DNA of 61,489 nucleotides from Clostridia bacterium (GCA_029007295.1 JAQXHN010000048.1:1-61489), one strand, 5' to 3'. Positions 31,305-49,933 are shown, numbered from the stretch's first letter. A program made the numbers and translations. Notes: a model not told the origin generated them from the sequence alone.

Positions 31305-33026
31305 TTGACTGTAAAAAGAATATTGTCGCATCTTCTGTGCACGTTAATAATTGCTTCGGCGTTTGTATATACTGCGAGTGCTCAAAAGACCTATTCCGAT
31401 GTAAAATACGGCGATTGGTATTATCAGAGCGTTTACGATATGACAAACAAAGGTTATATGAAAGGCACGTCCGATACGGCTTTTTCCCCTAAAGCTCCTA
31501 TGACGAGAGGAATGTTTGTAACCGTGATCGCTGCTATCGCAAATGCCGAGACCGATAACGAAAAAACCGGTGATTTTTATGATGTCGCCCGGGGAAAATA
31601 TTATACCGGCGCCGTAGTTTGGGCTACTGAAAACGGTATTATTTCGGGTACGTCGAAAAATTATTTCTCACCCGATTCTTATATCACGAGAGAGCAATGC
31701 GCCGTGATTTTAAGGAGCTTCGGCTTGTGGCTCAATTACGATGTAACATACGAGGATGAAACTCTGCTGTCGCTGTGTTATGATAATGCATGCGTTGGAA
31801 AATATGCGCTTGAGGCTGTTCGCTGGGCGTTGAATTACGGTCTTATGAGCAACAGAGGAGACATGGACTTCTGTCCGAAAAGCTCGCTTACAAGAGCTGA
31901 ATGCGCCGTAATTCTGTCAAATTTTCTGAAATACGAGGAAACTCCTCCTATTGTTCCGCCGAAGACGCACACCGTAAGGTTTGTAAATCATGATAATTCG
32001 CTTTTGTATTCTTGTATTGTCGAGGACGGCAAGAGTGCAAAATATCGCGGTGTAACCCCTACGAAGACTGCGGATTACTATTACACATATACCTTCGGCG
32101 GGTGGAGCGCTCCGTTCGATAAAGTTACAACCGATTTGACCGTTAAAGCGCAGTTTACTGCGGCGCAGGTTTATCATGAGCCCCCAAAGCCTCAGGAAAT
32201 TGATATTCGCAACGATAAATTCGGCCCCGGAATTACGGTTAACAACTCAACTTTCCAAATGAGTCCCTCTCTCTGCGCAAGGTTAAACAGTGCGCTTGCC
32301 GGGTCTAACGGCAGAACCGTCGGATTTTATGTTGTCGACCTTCAGTCAAAGATGACCCTCGGATACAATGCGACAACCGAATTCTGGACTGCATGTACGG
32401 TTAAAGCCGGAATGGCGCTGTATGCATATAAAAAATGCGAGTGGGGAGCGGCGTCGCTCAGTGATATTTGGACCTATCAGAAAAGGCATTACTGCGACCG
32501 TTCGGGAACAATCCAGTATTCGGCATTCGGAACAAGATATACCGCAGAGTATGTTTTGTACAATATGATTCATATCAGCGACAACGCAGCATATTATATG
32601 GCTCAGGACTATCTCGGATATCAGGGCTACAACGCCTATATCAAATCCTTAGGCGTAAAGCATACGCACTGGTCATACAATTCCTGGGGCTACTTAACTC
32701 CTCAGGAGCTTGGTCTTATCTGGCAGGAAATTTACAATTACCGCACACAGAGCTGGTACGGTGCAAAGCTGTTTGATATTTTCCTGAACGCCAAGTATAA
32801 CTTTATTAAGCAGGGCCTTTATAACAGATACGACGTAGCTCATAAATCCGGCTGGAACGATAAGAGCTACAACGACGCAGGCGTTGTGTTCGGAAAAAGA
32901 CCCTATGTTATGGTAATAATGACTACTCCCGGAAATCTTAACGGAAACGAAGCGTATTTAGGTTCTATTGCAAGGCTTCTTAACGAGTATATGGATGAAT
33001 ACAGCGCATGGATTGTTAATCAATAA
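31305..33026 (+). CDS. SLH-domain surface protein with class A beta-lactamase/penicillin-recognising domain
   Basis: The product has 573 residues from TTG 31305 (GAAGG upstream). A signal peptide (about 1-26, ending VYTASAQ) precedes three SLH domains (about 28-75, 87-135, 150-205) for S-layer-like anchoring. A proline-rich linker and a Listeria/Bacteroides-type repeat (TVRFVNHDNS, FGGWSAP, about 220-285) lead to a serine-hydrolase-like domain (about 310-570). In that domain the STxK box reads ACTVKAG, with Cys364 where Ser is expected and Lys367 conserved. SDN (HISDNAAYYM) and a KSG triad (AHKSGWND) are kept. It may be a modified D,D-peptidase or a peptidoglycan sensor. Confidence 0.85.
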   Translation: MTVKRILSHLLCTLIIASAFVYTASAQKTYSDVKYGDWYYQSVYDMTNKGYMKGTSDTAFSPKAPMTRGMFVTVIAAIANAETDNEKTGDFYDVARGKYYTGAVVWATENGIISGTSKNYFSPDSYITREQCAVILRSFGLWLNYDVTYEDETLLSLCYDNACVGKYALEAVRWALNYGLMSNRGDMDFCPKSSLTRAECAVILSNFLKYEETPPIVPPKTHTVRFVNHDNSLLYSCIVEDGKSAKYRGVTPTKTADYYYTYTFGGWSAPFDKVTTDLTVKAQFTAAQVYHEPPKPQEIDIRNDKFGPGITVNNSTFQMSPSLCARLNSALAGSNGRTVGFYVVDLQSKMTLGYNATTEFWTACTVKAGMALYAYKKCEWGAASLSDIWTYQKRHYCDRSGTIQYSAFGTRYTAEYVLYNMIHISDNAAYYMAQDYLGYQGYNAYIKSLGVKHTHWSYNSWGYLTPQELGLIWQEIYNYRTQSWYGAKLFDIFLNAKYNFIKQGLYNRYDVAHKSGWNDKSYNDAGVVFGKRPYVMVIMTTPGNLNGNEAYLGSIARLLNEYMDEYSAWIVNQ

Positions 33027-33152: not shown

Positions 33153-35237
33153 ATGACAGATATTCCGGAATTATTCGGCAGCCTCGTTTTTAACGACGAG
33201 GTAATGAAAGAGCGACTTGACTTAAATATCTATAATTCTTTGCACGATACAATCGAGGAGGGCAGACCTCTCGACATTACCGTCGCAAATTCGGTTGCCG
33301 CCGCAATGAAGAATTGGGCTATAGAAAAGGGTGCTACGCATTTTACACATTGGTTTCAGCCCATGACAGGCATCACGGCTGAAAAGCATGACAGCTTTAT
33401 TTCACCCACAAAAAACGGCGGCGTTATTATGGAGTTTTCCGGCAAGGAGCTGATTAAGGGCGAATCCGACGCTTCTTCATTTCCGTCGGGGGGACTTCGT
33501 GCGACGTTTGAGGCAAGAGGATATACCGCATGGGACCCAACCTCCTACGCTTTTATTAAGGGCACATCTTTATATATACCTACTGTGTTCTGTTCATGGG
33601 GAGGAGAGGCGCTTGATAAAAAAACTCCGCTTTTGCGTTCCATGGAGCGTCTTTGCACGGAGTCTTTGCGTATACTTAAGCTTTTCGGAAATACAAGCGT
33701 AAAAAGAGTTATCGCAACCGTCGGCGCAGAGCAGGAATATTTCCTTATTGACCGTGAAATGTACGACAAGAGAAAGGATTTAATTTTCACGGGAAGAACG
33801 CTGTTCGGAGCAAAACCACCGAAGGGACAGAGCGTCGAGCATCATTATTACGGTGCGATTAAGCCGAGAATTGCGGCTTTCATGAATGAACTCGACAAAG
33901 AGCTGTGGAAATTGGGGGTTTTGGCAAAAACAAAGCATAACGAAGCGGCTCCCGCACAGCATGAGCTGGCGCCGATATTTACTATAGTCAATACAGCGAC
34001 AGACCACAATCAGCTTATCATGGAAACGATGAAAACCGTTGCAGACAGACACGGACTTGTTTGTCTGCTGCATGAAAAGCCTTTTGAGGGCATGAACGGC
34101 TCGGGTAAGCATATAAACTGGTCTCTTTCAACGGACAAAGGCGAAAACTTATTTGCGCCCGGCGACTCTCCCGAAAGCAACGCTCAGTTTTTACTGTTTC
34201 TTTGCGCAGTTATAAGTGCGGTCGACGAATATCAGGATGTTCTCCGCGCATCGGTCGCAAGCGCCGGAAACGACAACAGATTGGGCTCCAGCGAGGCGCC
34301 TCCCGCCATAGTTTCGATATTTCTCGGCGATGAGCTTACCGATATTTTAGACGCTCTTGAAAAGAAGGAAACATACGGGGGTAAGGAAAAGTCCGAGGTT
34401 GAAATAGGCGTTGATATATTGCCGCATTTTACAAAGGACGTTTCTGACAGAAACCGTACCTCGCCTTTTGCATTTACGGGAAACAAATGGGAATTTCGCA
34501 TGCCCGGCTCGTCGCTGTCTATTGCCGGCCCGAGCACCGTGATCAATACCATAGTTGCCGAAGAATTAAGTATAATCGCAAGTGAGCTTGAAAAAGCCGA
34601 GGATTTTAATTATTCTCTCGGACACATTATCCGACGGGCAATCCGCCGTCACAGAAGAATAATCTTCAACGGGGACGGATACTCCGATGAATGGAAGACG
34701 GAAGCAAAGAAAAGAGGGCTGACGGATAATGCGAGCGCCGTCGATGCGCTGCCCGCTTTTGTAAATGATAAAAATATAGCTCTGTTTACAAAGCACAGAA
34801 TTTATTCAGAGAAGGAAGTGCATTCAAGACTGGATATCCTTCTCGGTACATATACGGATACCGTGCTGATAGAGGCGCAAACTATGCTCGAAATGGTTCG
34901 AAAGGATATTTACCCGTCGGTAACGAAGTATCTTAAGGAGCTTTGCGAAACGGTGAAGCTCGCCGAAAATTATACGGCGATGCTGAAAAGCGAAAAGGAT
35001 ATGATTTCAATGTATTCCTGCGGTGCGGATTCGATATATGAAGGAGCTTGCGAGCTGGAAACAAAGATCAACACGTTAAAGTCGATAAGCGACGCATACG
35101 GCAGAGCCGAATTTACCGCAAACAGCATTTTACCCACGATGAAGAAACTCCGCATTGTTGCCGACTCGCTTGAAGCGCACTGTCCGAAAAATTTATGGCC
35201 TTATCCGGATTACGGTGATATTCTGTTTAATTTCTGA
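33153..35237 (+). CDS. glnN: Glutamine synthetase type III
   Basis: The 694-residue size and motifs [28 protein letters not shown] and [12 protein letters not shown] identify GSIII, the large dodecameric form common in anaerobes and cyanobacteria. It makes glutamine from glutamate, ammonia and ATP. It is monocistronic, with its own promoter and a terminator shared with the convergent U32 gene. No P-II or nitrogen regulator is nearby. ATG 33153 is preceded by GGAACGGAG. Confidence 0.94.
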
Positions 35238-37194: not shown

Positions 37195-39474
37195 ATGAAA
37201 AAGACTCAAATCTTTAAGCTTTTTCTTTGCGTTTTTTGCATTGCGGCTGTGATTTTTGTATTTGCATCCTGCGGTGAAGAAACGGGCGGTAAAAAGGCTT
37301 CTGGATATGACGGAGAGATAATAGACAATCTTCCCACGGATCTCGATTTTAAAGGCGAACAGGTTAATCTTTTCTATTGGGGTTCCGAATTTGTTGACTG
37401 GGAGCTTACGTCGGACGGTACGACGGGCGATATTGTCGATAAGTCAATAAACGCACGTAACGATACCGTTGAGGCGCGTTTAGGCGTTAAGATGAATTAT
37501 ATTAAGGGCGAAGTTCCGGCAGAGGTATTTATGCCCACCGTTCGTGATGAAATCACGTCCGGCTCCACCGACTATGACCTTATTGCGGGCGTACAGTGTA
37601 CGGCCGGTCCGGTTGCGGCGGCAGGCGTATTCCTTGATTTACAGGACGCAAAGTATATTGATTATAACCAGCCCTATTGGAGCGACGATTACAATCAGGC
37701 GCTTTCCGTTAACTCAAAGCGTTTTATGATCGGCGGAGATATTTCCTTAACAACAACCGGCTGGGCGTCGTGCATGACGTTTGACTTAGAGCTTTTCAGA
37801 AGCTTGTTCGGCAGTGAAGACGATTTCTATCAGGAAGTTGCCGACGGCAAATGGACTCTTGACAGATTCGCCGAGAAGTGTAAGCTCTGCTACTCTGACC
37901 TTAACGGTAACGGTCAGAAGGATGCAAGCGACCGATACGGCTTCGGTATAGGAGGTACGACCTCGACTATCGACCAGTTCAACTTCTCTGCAGGCGTTAC
38001 ATATTCAAAACGTGACGAAAACAATGTTCCCGTTCTTGACGTAAAGAACGAAAGAACAATAGAGTTTGTTGAGAAATTCTATAACATTGTTTATAATAAT
38101 GAAGGCGTTCTTCATTATACGAATGACACTGCCGAAACCGTAACGGATAATATGAGCTCCGTATTTGAGGGCGCAACGCTTGACTCTATCAAAGAAAAAC
38201 GCGGAGAAGAGAACGATTTCGGCGTAATTCCCATGCCTAAGCTCAACGATAATCAGAGCAAGTATCATTCATGGATTTCCGATAACACCGTTGTATACTC
38301 TGTTCCGATATCGGAGCCCGCCGACAGGGTTGATATGGCGACTGCGGTTCTTGAGTGCATGGCAAGCGAAACATACCGTCAATGCTTACCTCAGTATTAT
38401 GAGAAAGCCTTGAAGAGCAAGTATGTACGCGACTCTTGGTCTGCAAAGATGCTTGATCTTATCCATGACGGTGAAACAACCGACTTTGTTGTATGCTACA
38501 GCCTTTCACTGGGTGAAATCGGCGGTATGATGAGATCTATTATCGGATATGGCGAGCCTAATATCGTATCCTGGTATGACGCAAAATCCTCAATGGTTGA
38601 AACCAAGCTTAAGGAGCTGTTTGAGGTATTTGAAGAGAATACCGATAAGCCCTTTGTAGCTGAAACTACAACTCAGCCTTCAAGCAGCGAGCTTGAAGAC
38701 CTTGATATTGCAGACAATCAGATTTCTTCCTCGTGGATTACTTTAGGCTCTAAATACAAGAAATCGGGCGTGCTCGTCAGCCAAGATTTGAGCGATAAGT
38801 TTGCATATGTTATAAACGATAATAACGAGATAGAAGTACGTTCTCCCGACATCAAGGTTTGCGGCGGTTACTATCCTACTGCGGCTATTGAATCGAGGGA
38901 AACACTTCCTATCAAAGACCTTTCCGTTACGTTCCATATCGACGACGGATTTACCTTCTCAACAAAGGGCTGGGCTTCCAGCTTTACTGTTCTTTGGACA
39001 GATACCGTAATTACTTCGCTTTCACAGTATCTTGAATCTCCCGGTACAAACGGATTGCGCGAAATCGTTCCCGATGAAACTAAGGGCGTCAGCGTTGGAT
39101 TTATCGGTTCACAGGCTGCAAGCGGATCCGTATCCGATTACCTTTATATCGTACTTTATGACGGCGAGGGCACAAGACCTGAGATTGACAATCGTATCGG
39201 CTACAGATTTACTAATCAAATTAACTACGATATAGCGGCGCCTACAACTATTGAATTCAAAGAGGACGATACCCTCGGCTACGTTGTTGTGATCAACGGC
39301 AACGAAATCAGAACGGGTACCAGAGGCAGCGATCTTTATGATATCGACCTCAATATCCTTAAGGACATTGAGGAGGGCTACCTCACTGTGGGCGGCGAAT
39401 CAAATGAAGATACCTTCTGTAACTTCACCTTATCTAAGATCAACGGTAAGGACGCCGGCACCTACTTCGATTGA
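37195..39474 (+). CDS. Solute-binding lipoprotein with extra C-terminal domain (copy 1)
   Basis: This lipoprotein of 759 residues has a signal peptide with lipobox FASC (lipidated Cys26). Residues about 45-488 form a family-1 extracellular solute-binding protein (QVNLFYWGSEFVDWELTSDG; FGVIPMPKLND; CMASETYRQCLPQYYEKALK). A calcium-loop-like DLNGNGQKDASDRYGFG is near 240. A Thr/Ser linker at about 489 leads to a beta-rich domain of about 260 residues (PDIKVCGGYYPTAAIESRET, NCFTLSKING-like end CNFTLSKINGKDAG). Such proteins normally deliver oligosaccharides to ABC permeases, but no permease gene is next to it. The C-terminal domain may be a concanavalin-like lectin fold; this is inference. Confidence 0.87.
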   Translation: MKKTQIFKLFLCVFCIAAVIFVFASCGEETGGKKASGYDGEIIDNLPTDLDFKGEQVNLFYWGSEFVDWELTSDGTTGDIVDKSINARNDTVEARLGVKMNYIKGEVPAEVFMPTVRDEITSGSTDYDLIAGVQCTAGPVAAAGVFLDLQDAKYIDYNQPYWSDDYNQALSVNSKRFMIGGDISLTTTGWASCMTFDLELFRSLFGSEDDFYQEVADGKWTLDRFAEKCKLCYSDLNGNGQKDASDRYGFGIGGTTSTIDQFNFSAGVTYSKRDENNVPVLDVKNERTIEFVEKFYNIVYNNEGVLHYTNDTAETVTDNMSSVFEGATLDSIKEKRGEENDFGVIPMPKLNDNQSKYHSWISDNTVVYSVPISEPADRVDMATAVLECMASETYRQCLPQYYEKALKSKYVRDSWSAKMLDLIHDGETTDFVVCYSLSLGEIGGMMRSIIGYGEPNIVSWYDAKSSMVETKLKELFEVFEENTDKPFVAETTTQPSSSELEDLDIADNQISSSWITLGSKYKKSGVLVSQDLSDKFAYVINDNNEIEVRSPDIKVCGGYYPTAAIESRETLPIKDLSVTFHIDDGFTFSTKGWASSFTVLWTDTVITSLSQYLESPGTNGLREIVPDETKGVSVGFIGSQAASGSVSDYLYIVLYDGEGTRPEIDNRIGYRFTNQINYDIAAPTTIEFKEDDTLGYVVVINGNEIRTGTRGSDLYDIDLNILKDIEEGYLTVGGESNEDTFCNFTLSKINGKDAGTYFD

Positions 39475-39671: not shown

Positions 39672-41930
39672 GTGAAAAAAACAAATTATTTGAAAATTGT
39701 TTCTGCGTTGTTAGCCTTGACGGCGGCAATATTCGTGTTTGCGTCGTGCGGCAAAAACGAAACAAGCAATACGAAGGAAGCAAGTGACGAGGAGCACCTT
39801 GACAATCTTCCGGACGATCTTGACTTCGGCGGCGAACAGGTCAATATCTTTTATTGGGGACACTCACTTGTTACGTGGGAGCTTACCTCTGACGGTACAA
39901 CGGGAGATATTGTTGAGAAGGCCGTAGATCAAAGAAATACCCAGGTGCAAAAGAGACTTGGCGTTACTTTAAATTACATTCAGGGCGACCCAGGCGTTTT
40001 TATGCCGATTGTACGTGACGAGATTATGTCGGGCTCAACTGACTACGATCTTGTTGTCGGAGCGCAGTGCGAAGCAGTTAGCGTTGCGGCTGCAGGCGCC
40101 TTTAGAGATCTTAGCCAGTCTAAATATTTGGATCTTACGAAGGAATATTGGAACCAGGAATACAACGAGGCTCTTTCCGTAAACGAAAAGAGATTCCTTG
40201 TAGGCGGAGACGCTTCTCTTACAACAACGGCATGGGCTTCCTGCCTGTTCTTCGATAAGAAGAATTATTCAAGCTTTTTCGGAGATGAGGAAGAATTTTA
40301 TCAATTTATCTACGACGGCAATTGGACATTGGATGAATATGCCGAAAGATGCAAACAGTGCTATAAGGACTTAAACGGTAACGGTGTAAGCGATTCAAGC
40401 GACCAGTACGGAATGGGAATGAATATCTCCTCCTCCAATACCGACCAGTACATGTTTTCATCCGGTGTAAACTTGTCATACAGAGACGAGAACAACATTC
40501 CCGTAGTTGATATGAAAAATGACAAAGCATTAGAATTCTGTGATAAATTCTATAATCTTATATACAATAATGAAGGCGTTCTCAACTATAAAAACGACGA
40601 AGCTGCCGAGGTTGAGGGCAATATGAAGTATGTCTTTATGGCGGGAACACTTCAGGCAATAGTTGAAATGAGAGGCGACGAAGACGATTTCGGCGTTATT
40701 CCCATGCCTAAGCTGAATGCTAATGAGACGGAATACCATTCATGGATTTCCGATATAACCGGAATTTGGGGCGTTCCGATTACTATTGATAATGATAGAG
40801 CCGAAAGAGCGTGCGCTGTTCTTGAATGTATGGCGAGCGAAACAAGAAGACTGGTTCTTCCCCAATATTATGAAAGAGCATTAAAGAATAAATATGTTCG
40901 TGACTCCTGGTCTGCGAAGATGCTGGATCTTATTCACGACGGAGAAACAACAGACTTTATTGCGGCGATGTTTAATTTCAACTTTATGCGCAGTCTTATT
41001 AGCGGCGGAGATCCGAACTATGTATCAAACTATGACGCAAAAGAAGCGCTGCTTTTGAAGGATGTTCAAAGCATGTTTGACGCCTTCGAGCAGAACACCA
41101 CACATTCGTTTGTTCCGGAAACAACCACTCAGGCGTCGAGCAAGGAAATTGAGGATTTAACTATTTCCGACAACCAGATCTCCAATTCATGGTTAACGTT
41201 CGGTTCAAAATATAAGAAATCCGGCATTTTGGTAAAAGAGGATATGAGCGATAAATTCGCTTACGTTATCAACGATAAGGATGAAATCGAGGTTCGCTCT
41301 CCCGACATCAAGGTTGCGGGAGGATATTACCCGACGGCGGCTATAACCTCAAGAGAAACCTTGCCTCTTGCAGACCTGAGCGTTACATTCCGTATTGACG
41401 AGGGCTTCCAATTCAATAATAACGGTTGGTCTTCAGCTATGTCGGTGCTCTGGACAGATAAGCCTATGGAATCCTTGCCGTATTATCTTGAATGCCCCGG
41501 AACAAACGGACTCCGTGAGAGCGTTGTTGAAGATACAACCGGACTTTGTGTAAGCTTTATGGGTACGGGTTATACGTCCGGAAGCGTTGCAGACCTTATC
41601 TATATAATTGTGTATGACGGCAACGGAACAAGACCTGAGGGAGACAACCGTCTTGGTTACCGCTATACTAACTGGGTTAACACAGACCTCGGAACAGATT
41701 GCACGATAGAAGTCAAGGAAGACGAGACTCTCGGTTATGTTGTATCCATAAACGGAACGGAGTACCGTACCGGACTTCGCGGAGAAAATGCAATCGATAT
41801 TGACTTAACACCGCTTAAGGATATCGAAGAGGGATATATTACGGTCGGCGGCGAGTCAACCGATGAAAGCTTCTCGAACTTTACATTGTCAAAGATAAAC
41901 GGCAAAACGGCAGGAAGCTTCTTTGATTAA
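39672..41930 (+). CDS. Solute-binding lipoprotein with extra C-terminal domain (copy 2)
   Basis: The 752-residue tandem paralogue of the preceding lipoprotein starts at GTG 39672 after GGCGGTGG. Lipobox FASC gives Cys26 again. The binding domain (about 40-483) and C-terminal domain (about 485-752) align along their length with copy 1, including DLNGNGVSDSSDQYGMG, FGVIPMPKLNANE, SPDIKVAGGYYPTAAI and FTLSKINGKTAG. Differences cluster around the putative ligand pocket, e.g. near the segment after GETTDF, hinting at different ligands. It is followed by a terminator and no permease. Confidence 0.87.
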   Translation: MKKTNYLKIVSALLALTAAIFVFASCGKNETSNTKEASDEEHLDNLPDDLDFGGEQVNIFYWGHSLVTWELTSDGTTGDIVEKAVDQRNTQVQKRLGVTLNYIQGDPGVFMPIVRDEIMSGSTDYDLVVGAQCEAVSVAAAGAFRDLSQSKYLDLTKEYWNQEYNEALSVNEKRFLVGGDASLTTTAWASCLFFDKKNYSSFFGDEEEFYQFIYDGNWTLDEYAERCKQCYKDLNGNGVSDSSDQYGMGMNISSSNTDQYMFSSGVNLSYRDENNIPVVDMKNDKALEFCDKFYNLIYNNEGVLNYKNDEAAEVEGNMKYVFMAGTLQAIVEMRGDEDDFGVIPMPKLNANETEYHSWISDITGIWGVPITIDNDRAERACAVLECMASETRRLVLPQYYERALKNKYVRDSWSAKMLDLIHDGETTDFIAAMFNFNFMRSLISGGDPNYVSNYDAKEALLLKDVQSMFDAFEQNTTHSFVPETTTQASSKEIEDLTISDNQISNSWLTFGSKYKKSGILVKEDMSDKFAYVINDKDEIEVRSPDIKVAGGYYPTAAITSRETLPLADLSVTFRIDEGFQFNNNGWSSAMSVLWTDKPMESLPYYLECPGTNGLRESVVEDTTGLCVSFMGTGYTSGSVADLIYIIVYDGNGTRPEGDNRLGYRYTNWVNTDLGTDCTIEVKEDETLGYVVSINGTEYRTGLRGENAIDIDLTPLKDIEEGYITVGGESTDESFSNFTLSKINGKTAGSFFD

Positions 41931-45366: not shown

Positions 45367-45395
45367 TTGATTTTTTGTAAACGATATGCTATACT
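45367..45395 (+). promoter_or_regulatory. Promoter and leader of the giant repeat protein
   Basis: TTGATT (45367-45372) and TATACT (45390-45395) are spaced 17 bases. The leader to ATG 45493 is about 90 bases. It contains GGCAG/CTGCC and GGTT/AACC small inverted repeats and a strong TAGGAGGT ribosome binding site, which together suggest high expression and a stabilised 5' end. The rest of 45244-45366 is AT-rich with nothing recognised. Confidence 0.6.
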
Positions 45396-45492
45396 TTATT
45401 CAAGAATTAGTCAGCGGCAGTAGTGGTTCTGCCACGAATAATTCAAATGCTTTAAGGTTTTCTAACCAAAAACAAATATTAGGAGGTATTTT

Positions 45493-48400
45493 ATGAAAAC
45501 ATTTAAGCGCATACTTGCTGTAGCTCTTTCTGCTTTTCTCATTGTTCCGACAATGTTGACCGGACTTTCCGTTTCGGCTGCTGATGTTGGTTATGAAAGA
45601 AGCTGGGATGTAGTTACATCCGGTGGCACTGTATCTGTAGATAACGGCGCGCTTGTCGCAGAAAACACAGGTGCATATGCGACCACAAAATTCATCACCA
45701 AGTCCGCAAGCACGATGGACGGCTTCAAGGCAAATGTATTGACCAATTCCGATACAATTACTTTTGCTCTTACCACCGCCCGTGACAACTATGACGAGCT
45801 CAGCGAGTTCGCATGTGCTTCGGATAAGACTCAGGGTATGGAGAGATTTGGTATTGTTAGAGCAACAAACTTAGCTGCAGGTGAGCATACCTTCAACGTA
45901 ACTCTCTCTGAATTCCTTGATCTCGGTTGGTATACATATCCCGGCACGCTCGGTGACGGTATATACGACCAGGCAGTTTTCTCGGTTGTTCATAACGGTG
46001 AACACTGGGATTCCTCAAACAACGAAATCATCAGTCTCGGCATTAAGCAGGGCGAAGCATTTGACTTCGAAATGATTAACCACTATGACGAAGACGAAGC
46101 TGCCAACATATTCGGTTACAGCCTTAACGGCACACCTGTATGGCCGAGAACCGGCGGCTTTGACAATTACAACGATCTCGACTACTACTTTGTTGTAATG
46201 GCTTATTCAATTAACGCAAGCAGCGGAAACGCAGATCTTACTGTTAATACTGTATGCGGAGTACCCGCTGCAGAGTTTAAGCCTGAGCTTCCCAAGGTTG
46301 CGGTTATAGGCGATGCTGCTTATACTTCTCTTGCAGAAGCTTATGAAGCAGCTGTAGCAGGTGATACAATCACTCTTATCGGTGATGTAGCTCTTGACAG
46401 CGTTCTTAACGTTGAAAAGGATCTCACACTCGACCTCGGTAACTACACAATCACAGCGGCAGGCAACGCTCTTCGTGTAAGCGGCGCTAATGTTGTAATC
46501 AACGCTGTAAACGGCGGTATTACTGCAGGCGAAGGCGGTTCATATTACGCAGTATGTGCCGTAGCCGACGCTCTTGTTACAATCAACGGCGGTAACTATA
46601 CAGTCGGAGCTGACGAAAACGGTGAAGGAAACAACACCATTTACGCAGCTGCATCCAACGGTGTTGCCGGCCACATTGTAATCAACGGCGGTACATTCTC
46701 AAGCGCTGCAACATATGCAGGAAAATATTGGGTACTTAACGGTCAGGACAGAACAGGCGCTACAATCACAGTTAACGGCGGTAAGTTTGTTAACTTTGAG
46801 CCCGGCGTAACTGTTGTTGCTCCCGAAGGAACAGAAGAAATCATTCTTAACCCGAAGGCTACCGTTACAGAGGCAGACGGTGTTTATACTGTAAAAGTAG
46901 TTGTTGCAAAGATCGGCGATGTTGAATATAAGTCACTCGCAGAAGCTTACGAAGCAGCAGTAGCAGGTGATACAATCACTCTCGTTGCTAACGAAGATTT
47001 AACAGACGTTCTTCTCATTGAAAAGAACCTCACACTCGACCTCGGTAATTACACAATCACAGCAGCAGGCAACGCTCTCCGCGTAAGAGGTGCTAATGTT
47101 ACAATCAACGCAGTTAACGGCGGCGTTACCGGCGGCGAAGGCGGTTCATATTGCGCAGTAAGATCCGAAGCCGGCGCGCTCGTTACAATCAATGGCGGTA
47201 ACTACACAGTTGGCGCTGACGAAAACGGCGAAGGAAACAACACAATTTATGCTGCAACATACAGCGAGGATCCCGATAAGGTTCCCGGTCATGTTGTAAT
47301 CAACGACGGTACATTCTCAACCGCTGCTACATATGATGAAAAGTATTGGGTACTTAACTGTCAGGACAGAACAGGCGCAACAATCACTGTTAACGGCGGT
47401 AAGTTCGTTAACTTTGAGCCCGGCGTAACTGTTGTTGCTCCCGAAGGAACAGAAGAAATCCTTCTCGGCGCATGCGCTGCTGTTACTGCTGAAGAAAATG
47501 TATACACAGTAGCTATCAAGCATACAAATACAGGTGCTTTGACTGTTGTTAACCATGCTATCGTATCGGATGTTTGTTCCGTATGCGGTACTGTAATCCA
47601 GGAAGCTCCCGCATATGACAAGTTCATTATTGACGGTAACCCCGGCACAACAGCTGCATTTGACGAAAACGGCGATGTAACCCTTACCGGTACTATCACT
47701 AAGTTCGTTTCAAAGAATACCTATGAAATGAACGGAATCACAATCAAGGCTAACTCAACAGCTCCGAATGCTGCATTCACCATTACAACAACTCCTTCAT
47801 CCTACGATGATTGGGCAGAGTGGTCACAGCTCACAATCGGTGCAGGCTACGGCTACTACGGTAACCTCACTGGTAACTGGACTGCAGGTGAATACTCCTT
47901 GAACATTACACTTTCCGATTTTCTTGACCTCGGCTGGACCGTACTCGGCACAAAAGACGATAACACCTACAACGTAGGTACCGCTACAATTTGTTCAAAC
48001 GGTAACTTCTGGGGTGACAAGTCCAAGACAGACTTCGCAGTTCCGATGGGTGAAGACTTCACTCTCACAGTTCACAACTACTACAACGAAGACGACGCAG
48101 GTTGGGAACTCTCCTACGATGTAAACGGCGTATATCACTATCCCGACGGAATGGCAAATGCATACAAAGATGCCAACTTCAAGGATTACACGATAATCGC
48201 AGGCGCTAACTTCACAACTCTTTGCGTTAAGGAAATGACAGGCTTGAATCACGAATGTGATCTCACTCCTAAGCTTGTTAACCATGTAATCGTTTCCGAG
48301 TGCTCCGTATGCGGTGCAAAGGGCGATATCCCCGCTTACGACAAGTTCATTCTTGACGGTAACCCCGGCACAACAGCTGCATTTGACGAAAACGGCGACG

Positions 48401-49851
48401 TAACCCTTACCGGTACTATCACAAAGTTCATTACAAAGAATACATTTGAAATGAACGGCCTCACAATCAAGGCTAACTCAACAGCTCCGAACGCTGCATT
48501 CACCATTACAACAACTCCTTCATCCTACGATGATTGGGCAGAGTGGTCACAGCTCAAGATCGGTGCAGGCTACGGCTATTACGGTAACCTCACTGGTAAC
48601 TGGACTGCAGGTGAATACTCCTTGAACATTACACTTTCCGATGCTCTTGACCTCGGCTGGACCGTACTCGGCACAGCAAACGATAACATCTACAACGTAG
48701 GTACCGCTACAGTTTGTTCAAACGGTAACTTCTGGGGCGACAAGTCCAAGACAGACTTCGCAATTCCGATGGGTGAAGACTTCACTCTCACAGTTCACAA
48801 CTACTACAACGAAGACGATGCAGGTTGGGAGCTCTCCTACGATGTAAACGGCGTATATCACTATCCCGACGGAATGGCAAATGCATTCAAAGATGCCAAC
48901 TTCAAGGATTACACAGTAATCGCAGGCGCTAACTTCACTACACTTAGCGTTAAGGAAGTTACCGGCTTGAAGCATACATGCGTAGGCGCTGAAAATACAG
49001 CTTACAATTCTGAAGTTGTATGTACAATCTGCGGTAAGGTAATCGGATATACTCCTTCTCTTGCAGCAGACGAAAAGCTCATCACAGTATCTACTGCAGA
49101 TGAAATCAAGGATATCTTCTTCATTGAAGGTACATACGCTGATTATGCTGAAATCAAGGCAGCTCACGCTTCCGATGCTTCGCTGTTCTATACTCGTAGA
49201 GTAGGCGGAACAGACAAGATTGTTGACGGTACAACAGTTGTTAATACAACTAAGTACGGAACATTCACAGTTCTTACACGTCTTGCTGACGGCAGATCCT
49301 TCATCGATACAGTTGAAATGGTAGCTCCCGCAGCTGCTGAAAACACAATCGTTGTTGAAGGCTCTAACGCAAACGTTACAAACAACTACGGCGCAAACTT
49401 CGTAATGGTATTTGAAGGACATTATGATACCTATGCAGAAGCTAAGGCTGCAAAGACTACAGCTCCTTACTTCAAGAGCTACAGCGCAACCAAGGTTAAT
49501 GCAGACGGTTCTTATGATGTTGTACTTCCCGCTTACGGAACAGAATACACCGTTGTTGTAAGAACACTTACAGGCGAGTATGTTCTCAGCTATGTTCAGA
49601 CAGAAGCTAAACCCGCAGTAGTATTTGACGGTCTTACATTCACAGGTCTTGAGAATGTTACAACCGTTCGTTACGCTAAGGGTACATATACAAATGTAAG
49701 CGATATGAAGACATCCACTGAATACAGAGGTATCGCATCCAGATTGTTTGTTGACAATACATTCACATTGAAGACAGCTCTTAAAGGCGAATACACCATT
49801 GTATATCAGTATGCTAACGGCGCAATGGATATCTTCACATTGACCTTCTAA
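45493..49851 (+). CDS. Large secreted multi-repeat surface protein
   Basis: This 1452-residue protein has a signal peptide (about 1-30, ending LSVSAAD). It is a mosaic. Residues about 33-265 form a beta-sandwich-like module. Two 202-residue beta-helix-type repeats start at about 273 and 475 (SLAEAYEAAVAGDTITL, then NGGKFVNFEPG). Two nearly identical 241-residue modules start at 708 and 949 (DGNPGTTAAFDENGDVTLTG). C-terminal units of about 85 residues include IEGTYADYAEIKAA and FEGHYDTYAEAKAA. Short CxxC pieces (CSVCGTVI, CSVCGAKG, CTICGKVI) separate modules. No SLH or LPXTG anchor is visible. Codon use is strongly biased (gct, aca, gta) unlike neighbours, suggesting abundance. Function is unknown; adhesion or glycan binding is a guess. 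Confidence 0.88.
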   Translation: MKTFKRILAVALSAFLIVPTMLTGLSVSAADVGYERSWDVVTSGGTVSVDNGALVAENTGAYATTKFITKSASTMDGFKANVLTNSDTITFALTTARDNYDELSEFACASDKTQGMERFGIVRATNLAAGEHTFNVTLSEFLDLGWYTYPGTLGDGIYDQAVFSVVHNGEHWDSSNNEIISLGIKQGEAFDFEMINHYDEDEAANIFGYSLNGTPVWPRTGGFDNYNDLDYYFVVMAYSINASSGNADLTVNTVCGVPAAEFKPELPKVAVIGDAAYTSLAEAYEAAVAGDTITLIGDVALDSVLNVEKDLTLDLGNYTITAAGNALRVSGANVVINAVNGGITAGEGGSYYAVCAVADALVTINGGNYTVGADENGEGNNTIYAAASNGVAGHIVINGGTFSSAATYAGKYWVLNGQDRTGATITVNGGKFVNFEPGVTVVAPEGTEEIILNPKATVTEADGVYTVKVVVAKIGDVEYKSLAEAYEAAVAGDTITLVANEDLTDVLLIEKNLTLDLGNYTITAAGNALRVRGANVTINAVNGGVTGGEGGSYCAVRSEAGALVTINGGNYTVGADENGEGNNTIYAATYSEDPDKVPGHVVINDGTFSTAATYDEKYWVLNCQDRTGATITVNGGKFVNFEPGVTVVAPEGTEEILLGACAAVTAEENVYTVAIKHTNTGALTVVNHAIVSDVCSVCGTVIQEAPAYDKFIIDGNPGTTAAFDENGDVTLTGTITKFVSKNTYEMNGITIKANSTAPNAAFTITTTPSSYDDWAEWSQLTIGAGYGYYGNLTGNWTAGEYSLNITLSDFLDLGWTVLGTKDDNTYNVGTATICSNGNFWGDKSKTDFAVPMGEDFTLTVHNYYNEDDAGWELSYDVNGVYHYPDGMANAYKDANFKDYTIIAGANFTTLCVKEMTGLNHECDLTPKLVNHVIVSECSVCGAKGDIPAYDKFILDGNPGTTAAFDENGDVTLTGTITKFITKNTFEMNGLTIKANSTAPNAAFTITTTPSSYDDWAEWSQLKIGAGYGYYGNLTGNWTAGEYSLNITLSDALDLGWTVLGTANDNIYNVGTATVCSNGNFWGDKSKTDFAIPMGEDFTLTVHNYYNEDDAGWELSYDVNGVYHYPDGMANAFKDANFKDYTVIAGANFTTLSVKEVTGLKHTCVGAENTAYNSEVVCTICGKVIGYTPSLAADEKLITVSTADEIKDIFFIEGTYADYAEIKAAHASDASLFYTRRVGGTDKIVDGTTVVNTTKYGTFTVLTRLADGRSFIDTVEMVAPAAAENTIVVEGSNANVTNNYGANFVMVFEGHYDTYAEAKAAKTTAPYFKSYSATKVNADGSYDVVLPAYGTEYTVVVRTLTGEYVLSYVQTEAKPAVVFDGLTFTGLENVTTVRYAKGTYTNVSDMKTSTEYRGIASRLFVDNTFTLKTALKGEYTIVYQYANGAMDIFTLTF
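46309..47520 (+). repeat. Tandem 606-bp coding repeat (two copies)
   Basis: Copy 1 starts at 46309 and copy 2 at 46915. They share long runs such as GAAGCTTA(T/C)GAAGCAGC and AACTTTGAGCCCGGCGTAAC. Each encodes a 202-residue beta-helix-type module of the giant secreted protein. Confidence 0.85.
47614..49060 (+). repeat. Tandem 723-bp coding repeat (two copies, near-identical DNA)
   Basis: Copy 1 starts at 47614 and copy 2 at 48337. Long blocks differ only at scattered bases, including synonymous positions, for example around 47811-47930 versus 48534-48653. This points to recent duplication or ongoing gene conversion. Assemblies of this region may vary in copy number. Confidence 0.88.
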
Positions 49852-49900: not shown

Positions 49901-49933
49901 CACCGCAGACAGCAATGTCTGCGGTGTTTTTTT
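49901..49933 (+). terminator. Terminator after the giant repeat protein
   Basis: CACCGCAGACA and TGTCTGCGGTG form a perfect 11-base stem with a GCAA tetraloop and a T run. It is among the strongest terminators in the window, matching a highly expressed gene. Confidence 0.92.

Follow-up and report, generated by a model that had tools for sequence, protein, structure and literature searches.

In a 61,489-nucleotide stretch of DNA from a Clostridia bacterium (GCA_029007295.1 JAQXHN010000048.1:1-61489; the whole stretch is called the window), the gene P0001 encodes a 1452-residue mosaic protein that ends in an array of repeats termed C. With a probability of roughly one half, we read P0001 as a very highly expressed, non-enzymatic surface protein that is held non-covalently by its C repeats and belongs to a small clade of gut Clostridia. 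The C array would retain proteins on the surface without a covalent bond, in the manner of SLH or CWB2 tandems but as a member of neither family; we infer this binding, as well as the abundance, the surface location and a ligand, from computed properties, namely the modules, their order, distribution and partners, the absence of SLH, and codon adaptation. Specifically, retention on the envelope is suggested by the range of partner proteins, the fixed repeat order, the absence of SLH from C proteins, and the exchange of SLH and C tails. All genomes compared were draft or metagenomic.

P0001 is an intact open reading frame of 1452 codons, and the frame remains open across 4.4 kb. A sequence-only reading of the window had described a secreted mosaic built by internal duplication, with three module families parted by CxxC mini-motifs. 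Frame, signal peptide, module copies and motifs were all observed, and the three families (A, B, and C) can be extended by a diverged A module at the N terminus and three diverged C repeats at the C terminus. The features are as follows.

45493..49851, plus strand: P0001 gene, 1452 residues (open reading frame, signal peptide)
45493..45582, plus strand: signal peptide, residues 1-30, VSA/AD (sequence)
45586..46278, plus strand: A0 module, residues 32-262 (profile and pairwise comparison)
46303..46926, plus strand: B1 module, residues 271-478, β-helix-like (profile; first half confident in the model)
46924..47553, plus strand: B2 module, residues 478-687 (profile, with bounds 474-687)
47575..47586, plus strand: CxxC motif 1, residue 695 (sequence)
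47614..48261, plus strand: A1 module, residues 708-923 (profile)
48301..48312, plus strand: CxxC motif 2, residue 937 (sequence)
48340..48978, plus strand: A2 module, residues 950-1162 (profile)
49021..49032, plus strand: CxxC motif 3, residue 1177 (sequence)
49054..49323, plus strand: C repeat 1, residues 1188-1277, R1-like (profile and repeat-type models)
49342..49605, plus strand: C repeat 2, residues 1284-1371, weakly R2-like (profile and repeat-type models)
49612..49848, plus strand: C repeat 3, residues 1374-1452, R4-like (profile and repeat-type models; Ig-like model)

The signal peptide has the sequence MKTFKRILAVALSAFLIVPTMLTGLSVSA. In pairwise comparisons, A1 and A2 share 86% identity in protein and 90% in DNA, in line with their earlier description as near-identical copies, whereas B1 and B2 are moderately diverged (75% and 80%, respectively). 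A0 shares only 30% identity with A1 and thus represents a diverged third A copy, and the C repeats of P0001 are mutually about 20 to 28% alike. The CxxC motifs are located at the junctions B2/A1, A1/A2, and A2/C and look like worn copies of a module-separating repeat, H-x-W-x5-PTC-x3-G-x3-R-x-C-x2-C-G, that is found throughout the family. The protein is acidic (isoelectric point 4.3) and rich in Ala, Gly, Thr, and Asn. Modules matching a well-characterized family had been named as a point against the sequence-only reading; the sequence gave no significant match in Pfam, NCBIfam, or PDB. It matched neither SLH (PF00395), which leaves P0001 outside the SLH-anchored proteins, nor CWB2 (PF04122), and CWB2 was also absent from the families listed for the C arrays. 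With P0001 as the query, no relative was found in the genome contig collection, and searches of the PDB with the A and C profiles returned nothing credible (best E 0.007, to an unrelated 'ORF2' protein chain).

C repeats were found on at least 72 exported proteins, encoded on stretches from the window genome, two genomes of a sister genus (g4), and a few further relatives. Among the 53 complete proteins, 35 carry four repeats, 13 three, and five two; the array is C-terminal in 32, N-terminal in 8, and internal in 13. Because the array can thus be N-terminal or internal (21 of 53), a C-terminal sorting signal of the T9SS-CTD or PEP-CTERM type was rejected. The repeats fall into four distinct types, R1 to R4. 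Since the initial classification was circular for four-repeat arrays, the order was assessed with models trained on one genome and applied to the arrays of other genomes, where 22 of 23 and 21 of 22 four-repeat arrays were called 1-2-3-4; in the sole deviation, the third repeat was typed as 1. The array of P0001 was typed 1-2-4 with low scores, while a multiple alignment places it over R1 to R3 instead, and as a whole it scored 199 bits versus 401 to 439 for four canonical arrays of the same genome. The C tail of P0001 may be described as a reduced version of an ordered four-repeat array.

The C profile matched 6 of 196 genomes of the family, in the same three genera as the A profile, and a single weak match was obtained in another family of the order. 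A sample of the class yielded nothing further, and because no g4 genome was among the matches, this sample probably lacked g4. Within the sampled genomes, the C repeats are thus all but restricted to three genera within a single family. Four contigs of the window genome (C7, C9, C26, and C52; L017 to L020) stop inside the last C repeat, which is of type R4, and two of these ends are nearly identical. Assembly seems to fail at this repeat, which would hide further C proteins, and because several contigs end within C repeats, the count for this genome is a lower bound. The collections of phages, plasmids, and viral contigs contained no C array, and consequently no phage lysin carrying one, which would have hinted directly at wall binding.

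The proteins bearing C arrays are diverse. They include GH18 proteins, SASA esterases, BspA-type LRR (LRR_5) proteins, papain-type peptidases, polysaccharide deacetylases, and a metallophosphatase, as well as an M23 peptidase with a C-type lectin domain and CHAP and lysozyme wall hydrolases. The array thus shows one functional feature of non-covalent wall anchors, a single tandem unit placed freely on many unrelated exported proteins. SLH was found on none of the 72 C-array proteins, though 25 SLH proteins, detected with a small SLH profile, share the same stretches; as these had been selected for holding C repeats, they are not a random sample for this comparison. SLH is frequent in these organisms, with about 35 open frames in the window genome and no fewer than 150 repeat matches per genome in two g4 genomes. 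Furthermore, A-module proteins with an SLH tail (L016, L054, L057, and L059) and those with a four-repeat C tail (L055, L056, and L058) align over about 800 residues at 27 to 32% identity up to the tail, which argues that one body type exists with either tail. Of the hints that the C array may do the job of SLH, this exchange is the strongest. The earlier statement that P0001 has no known anchor or enzyme motif holds insofar as no curated family was recognized, but its 'no anchor' part is probably wrong in substance, since the C tail behaves like an anchor module.

Two loci illustrate these arrangements. In the window genome, L015:1205-18726 encodes consecutively an SLH-GH18 protein, two further GH18 proteins (the first with A and three C repeats, the second with four A modules and four C repeats), and a SASA esterase preceded by four C repeats, so that one enzyme type occurs with SLH or a C array side by side. 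At L137:4625-6199 (minus strand), a 524-residue protein combines a signal peptide and four C repeats with a cohesin domain, a layout reminiscent of an anchoring scaffoldin whose SLH is replaced by C.

In the mechanism we propose, P0001 would be exported by its predicted Sec signal peptide, and its body would display the tandem A and B modules, with a surface role that could be that of a coat, glycan binding, or both. The C repeats would then keep the protein non-covalently on the envelope, as SLH or CWB2 tandems do. A full tail of four non-identical Ig-like repeats, R1-R2-R3-R4, would be one unit moved between proteins; because its own tail is reduced and diverged (R1-R2-R4-like), the hold on P0001 may be looser than that on its relatives, or the protein may be released. 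More tentatively, each cell may possess two parallel surface-display systems, the classical SLH and a new ordered four-repeat anchor with its own wall ligand, the latter carrying the coat-like protein, dozens of enzymes, and the cohesin protein in a scaffoldin's place. Should the C array prove to be an anchor, it would account for the display of a dominant coat-like protein alongside dozens of enzymes in uncultured ruminant-gut Clostridia and would add a new class to the few non-covalent wall anchors such as SLH and CWB2. The array is small and modular, which makes binding directly testable.

Structure models were calculated from shallow alignments of window sequences and two related loci. Fold prediction for each module had been proposed as a check by the sequence-only reading; one model of a C repeat and one of A0-B1 were obtained. 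The model of the C repeat, based on seven sequences, reached a predicted local distance difference test (pLDDT) value of 86 and features seven strands of at least three residues. With this model, Foldseek returned mostly Ig-like matches, all with E values above 0.06; the best Ig-like ones had a template modeling score of about 0.6 and E values of about 0.08 to 0.2. The C arrays show weak similarity in Pfam to filamin and Y_Y_Y, the latter for 20 of 26 arrays at E ≤ 1 (best 2e-8). In the A0-B1 model, calculated from six rows, A was poorly predicted (mean pLDDT 52), and confidence was confined to the first half of B1 (pLDDT 76 to 94); its fold search was uninformative, with all matches at E > 1. 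The B modules contain repeated short strands with GG turns. We take A as a probable orphan β-rich family and B as a probable β-helix.

Comparison with known systems places the C array close to, yet apart from, established anchors. Like the SLH tandem, it is a fixed-number tandem found on many exported proteins, at either end, with the same body type bearing either tail; unlike SLH, to which it has no sequence match and with which it never co-occurs, it is a predicted β-sandwich of about 80 residues per repeat, with four ordered repeats instead of three. In C. difficile, three non-identical CWB2 repeats, all needed and not interchangeable, anchor wall proteins (PMC4973711). The C array resembles this tandem as one unit of non-identical repeats that is borne by enzymes as well as by a putative major surface protein; it differs in sequence, predicted fold, and repeat number (four) and is essentially limited to three sampled genera. 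The Y_Y_Y and other Ig-like accessory domains (PF07495) are weakly similar to the C repeat and probably alike in fold type, but C is an ordered four-repeat unit on exported proteins and not a sensor-kinase accessory domain. P0001 itself recalls S-layer and S-layer-associated proteins, being large, acidic, apparently very highly expressed, and equipped with a tandem-repeat tail common to many enzymes; in Bacillus and C. difficile, minor proteins sharing the tail of the S-layer protein are known (PMC8056022). However, P0001 lacks the known anchor families, and a lattice would be hypothetical. Similarly, the short repeated strands and GG turns of B, together with the confidently modeled first half of B1, recall right-handed, pectate-lyase-like β-helices, but B has no significant sequence or fold match to them and no visible catalytic motif.

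Codon usage points to high expression of P0001. The codon adaptation index (CAI) was computed against EF-Tu of the window genome, which served as the reference for all genomes including g4. P0001 has the highest CAI of the 43 window genes (0.679), the other 42 lying between 0.28 and 0.55, which bears out the earlier remark that its codon use stands apart from every neighbor. The value exceeds those of rpsL (0.550), rpsG (0.538), and the part of fusA inside the window (0.557). The preference is evident for the Lys codon AAG (85% in P0001, 88% in EF-Tu, 47% in other window genes) and the Asn codon AAC (79%, 88%, and 49%, respectively). High expression is thus likely, and because its codon adaptation exceeds that of rpsL, rpsG, and fusA, P0001 is probably among the organism's most abundant exported proteins, as had been surmised. 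In g4, A-module proteins have CAI values of 0.59 to 0.75, level with the ribosomal proteins uL3 (0.665) and uL4 (0.709), whereas genes lacking these modules have a median of 0.41. The other A-module proteins of the window genome are lower, at 0.42 and 0.58 (two GH18 proteins) and 0.47 (SLH-tailed), and the SLH-tailed protein of genus g45 reaches 0.48. The flanking regions of P0001 contain the following elements.

45367..45395, plus strand: promoter-like site TTGATT-17-TATACT with extended TG -10 (pattern match only)
45402..45480, plus strand: structured 5′ leader, hairpin GGCAG...CTGCC (-20.8 kcal/mol, z -2.4 versus shuffles)
45481..45487, plus strand: ribosome-binding site AGGAGGT (sequence)
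49901..49933, plus strand: intrinsic terminator, perfect 11-bp stem followed by T7 (sequence)

Of the strong promoter, leader, and terminator described earlier, the terminator is clear and the leader is more structured than shuffled sequences, but promoter-like sites of this pattern show no excess over shuffles in the region. In an Rfam scan of the region, all matches remained under the gathering scores, and the leader was assigned to no family.

The modules of P0001 are not unique to it: A occurs on GH18 and SLH proteins, and the C array on dozens of exported proteins. In the window genome, one GH18 protein (L015:7527-14027) combines four copies of A with four C repeats, another has one A and three C repeats (L015:3245-7336), and an SLH protein bears an A module (L016:4979-8350). 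The A profile matched 8 of 295 family genomes, in 3 of 71 family genera, and among 391 genomes drawn from the class only the window genome. Weak relatives of B occur in 10 of the 71 genera, including its own. Two g4 genomes bear names in a public collection: 'Clostridia bacterium RGIG7300', which comes from the cecum of a water buffalo, and 'Oscillospiraceae bacterium SIG630'. At five g4 loci, two of which are cut by a contig end, a protein combining A with a β-helix is encoded a few kilobases after a type III glutamine synthetase gene. The homologous synthetase of the window, assigned to type III by Pfam, is located at 33153-35237, about 10 kb upstream of P0001. In addition, the relative L047 aligns with P0001 across A0-B1 and the signal peptide (55% identity over residues 1-31). 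Because of this match and the shared synthetase neighborhood, P0001 is probably the counterpart of the g4 A-plus-β-helix proteins, with B expanded and A duplicated again.

Several points weigh against our preferred reading of P0001. Its C array is one repeat short and strongly diverged, and wall proteins of C. difficile are secreted into the medium when their CWB2 repeat pattern is altered (PMC4973711). Codon adaptation is a mere proxy for abundance, and the Ala/Gly/Thr/Asn-rich composition may influence the value of P0001; the A module was modeled with low confidence; and many partners of the array act on glycans, so that C could bind substrate. P0001 might accordingly be mainly a released, abundant glycan-binding or matrix protein, with A binding carbohydrate and the short, low-scoring C array no longer anchoring. 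The presence of A on GH18 enzymes, in one case in four copies, and its conserved W, Y, G, and D, aromatic residues included, would agree with this; A modules are, however, also present on the SLH-anchored proteins L016, L054, L057, and L059 and hence work at the surface, and they match no carbohydrate-binding module family in sequence, so that we regard a released protein as rather unlikely. Equally improbable in our judgment is that exported enzymes share the C array as a means of binding substrate or host rather than as an anchor. GH18 proteins, SASA esterases, and polysaccharide deacetylases are glycan-active, and the Ig-like appearance of the repeat is frequent among accessory domains, but peptidases, phosphatases, LRR proteins, wall hydrolases, and the cohesin protein are partners as well, and SLH and C never occur together while one body type swaps SLH for C.

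A special case of surface retention by the C array is that P0001 forms the subunit of a regular S-layer lattice. The very high CAI, the low isoelectric point, the large size without an enzyme domain, and the SLH-tailed A-module protein in the same genome are consistent with this idea; since several A-module proteins score highly in the g4 genomes, no single lattice protein stands out, and we consider a lattice distinctly unlikely. That P0001 is an ordinary or artefactual repeat protein, arising from duplication noise or misassembly of a metagenome contig, is very improbable. Repeats do disturb this assembly, as several of its 60 contigs end exactly in C repeats, but the frame is intact over 4.4 kb, the copies differ at 10 to 20% of DNA positions, the same modules occur in independent genomes, and a relative of the gene is found close to the same glutamine synthetase gene.

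A few further observations concern neighboring genes. In one g4 genome, a C4-tailed A protein is encoded directly upstream of the uL3 and uL4 ribosomal protein genes (L055:3673-9994). Exported proteins of about 400 residues with CAI values of 0.61 to 0.67 are encoded at L054:7247-8449, L057:7193-8188, and L052:3251-4471, in the first two cases adjoining the SLH-tailed A protein. In the window, an antisense open reading frame overlapping P0001 (48718-49869, minus strand; 383 residues, cysteine-rich) had no visible support as a gene and is most likely a by-product of repeat codon use. An SLH protein at 31440-33026 carries a β-lactamase-like domain (PF13354), an unusual surface-anchored pairing. 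Finally, two adjacent exported proteins of about 750 residues (37195-39474 and 39672-41930) have raised CAI values of 0.50 and 0.45, and one of them matches a solute-binding protein family.

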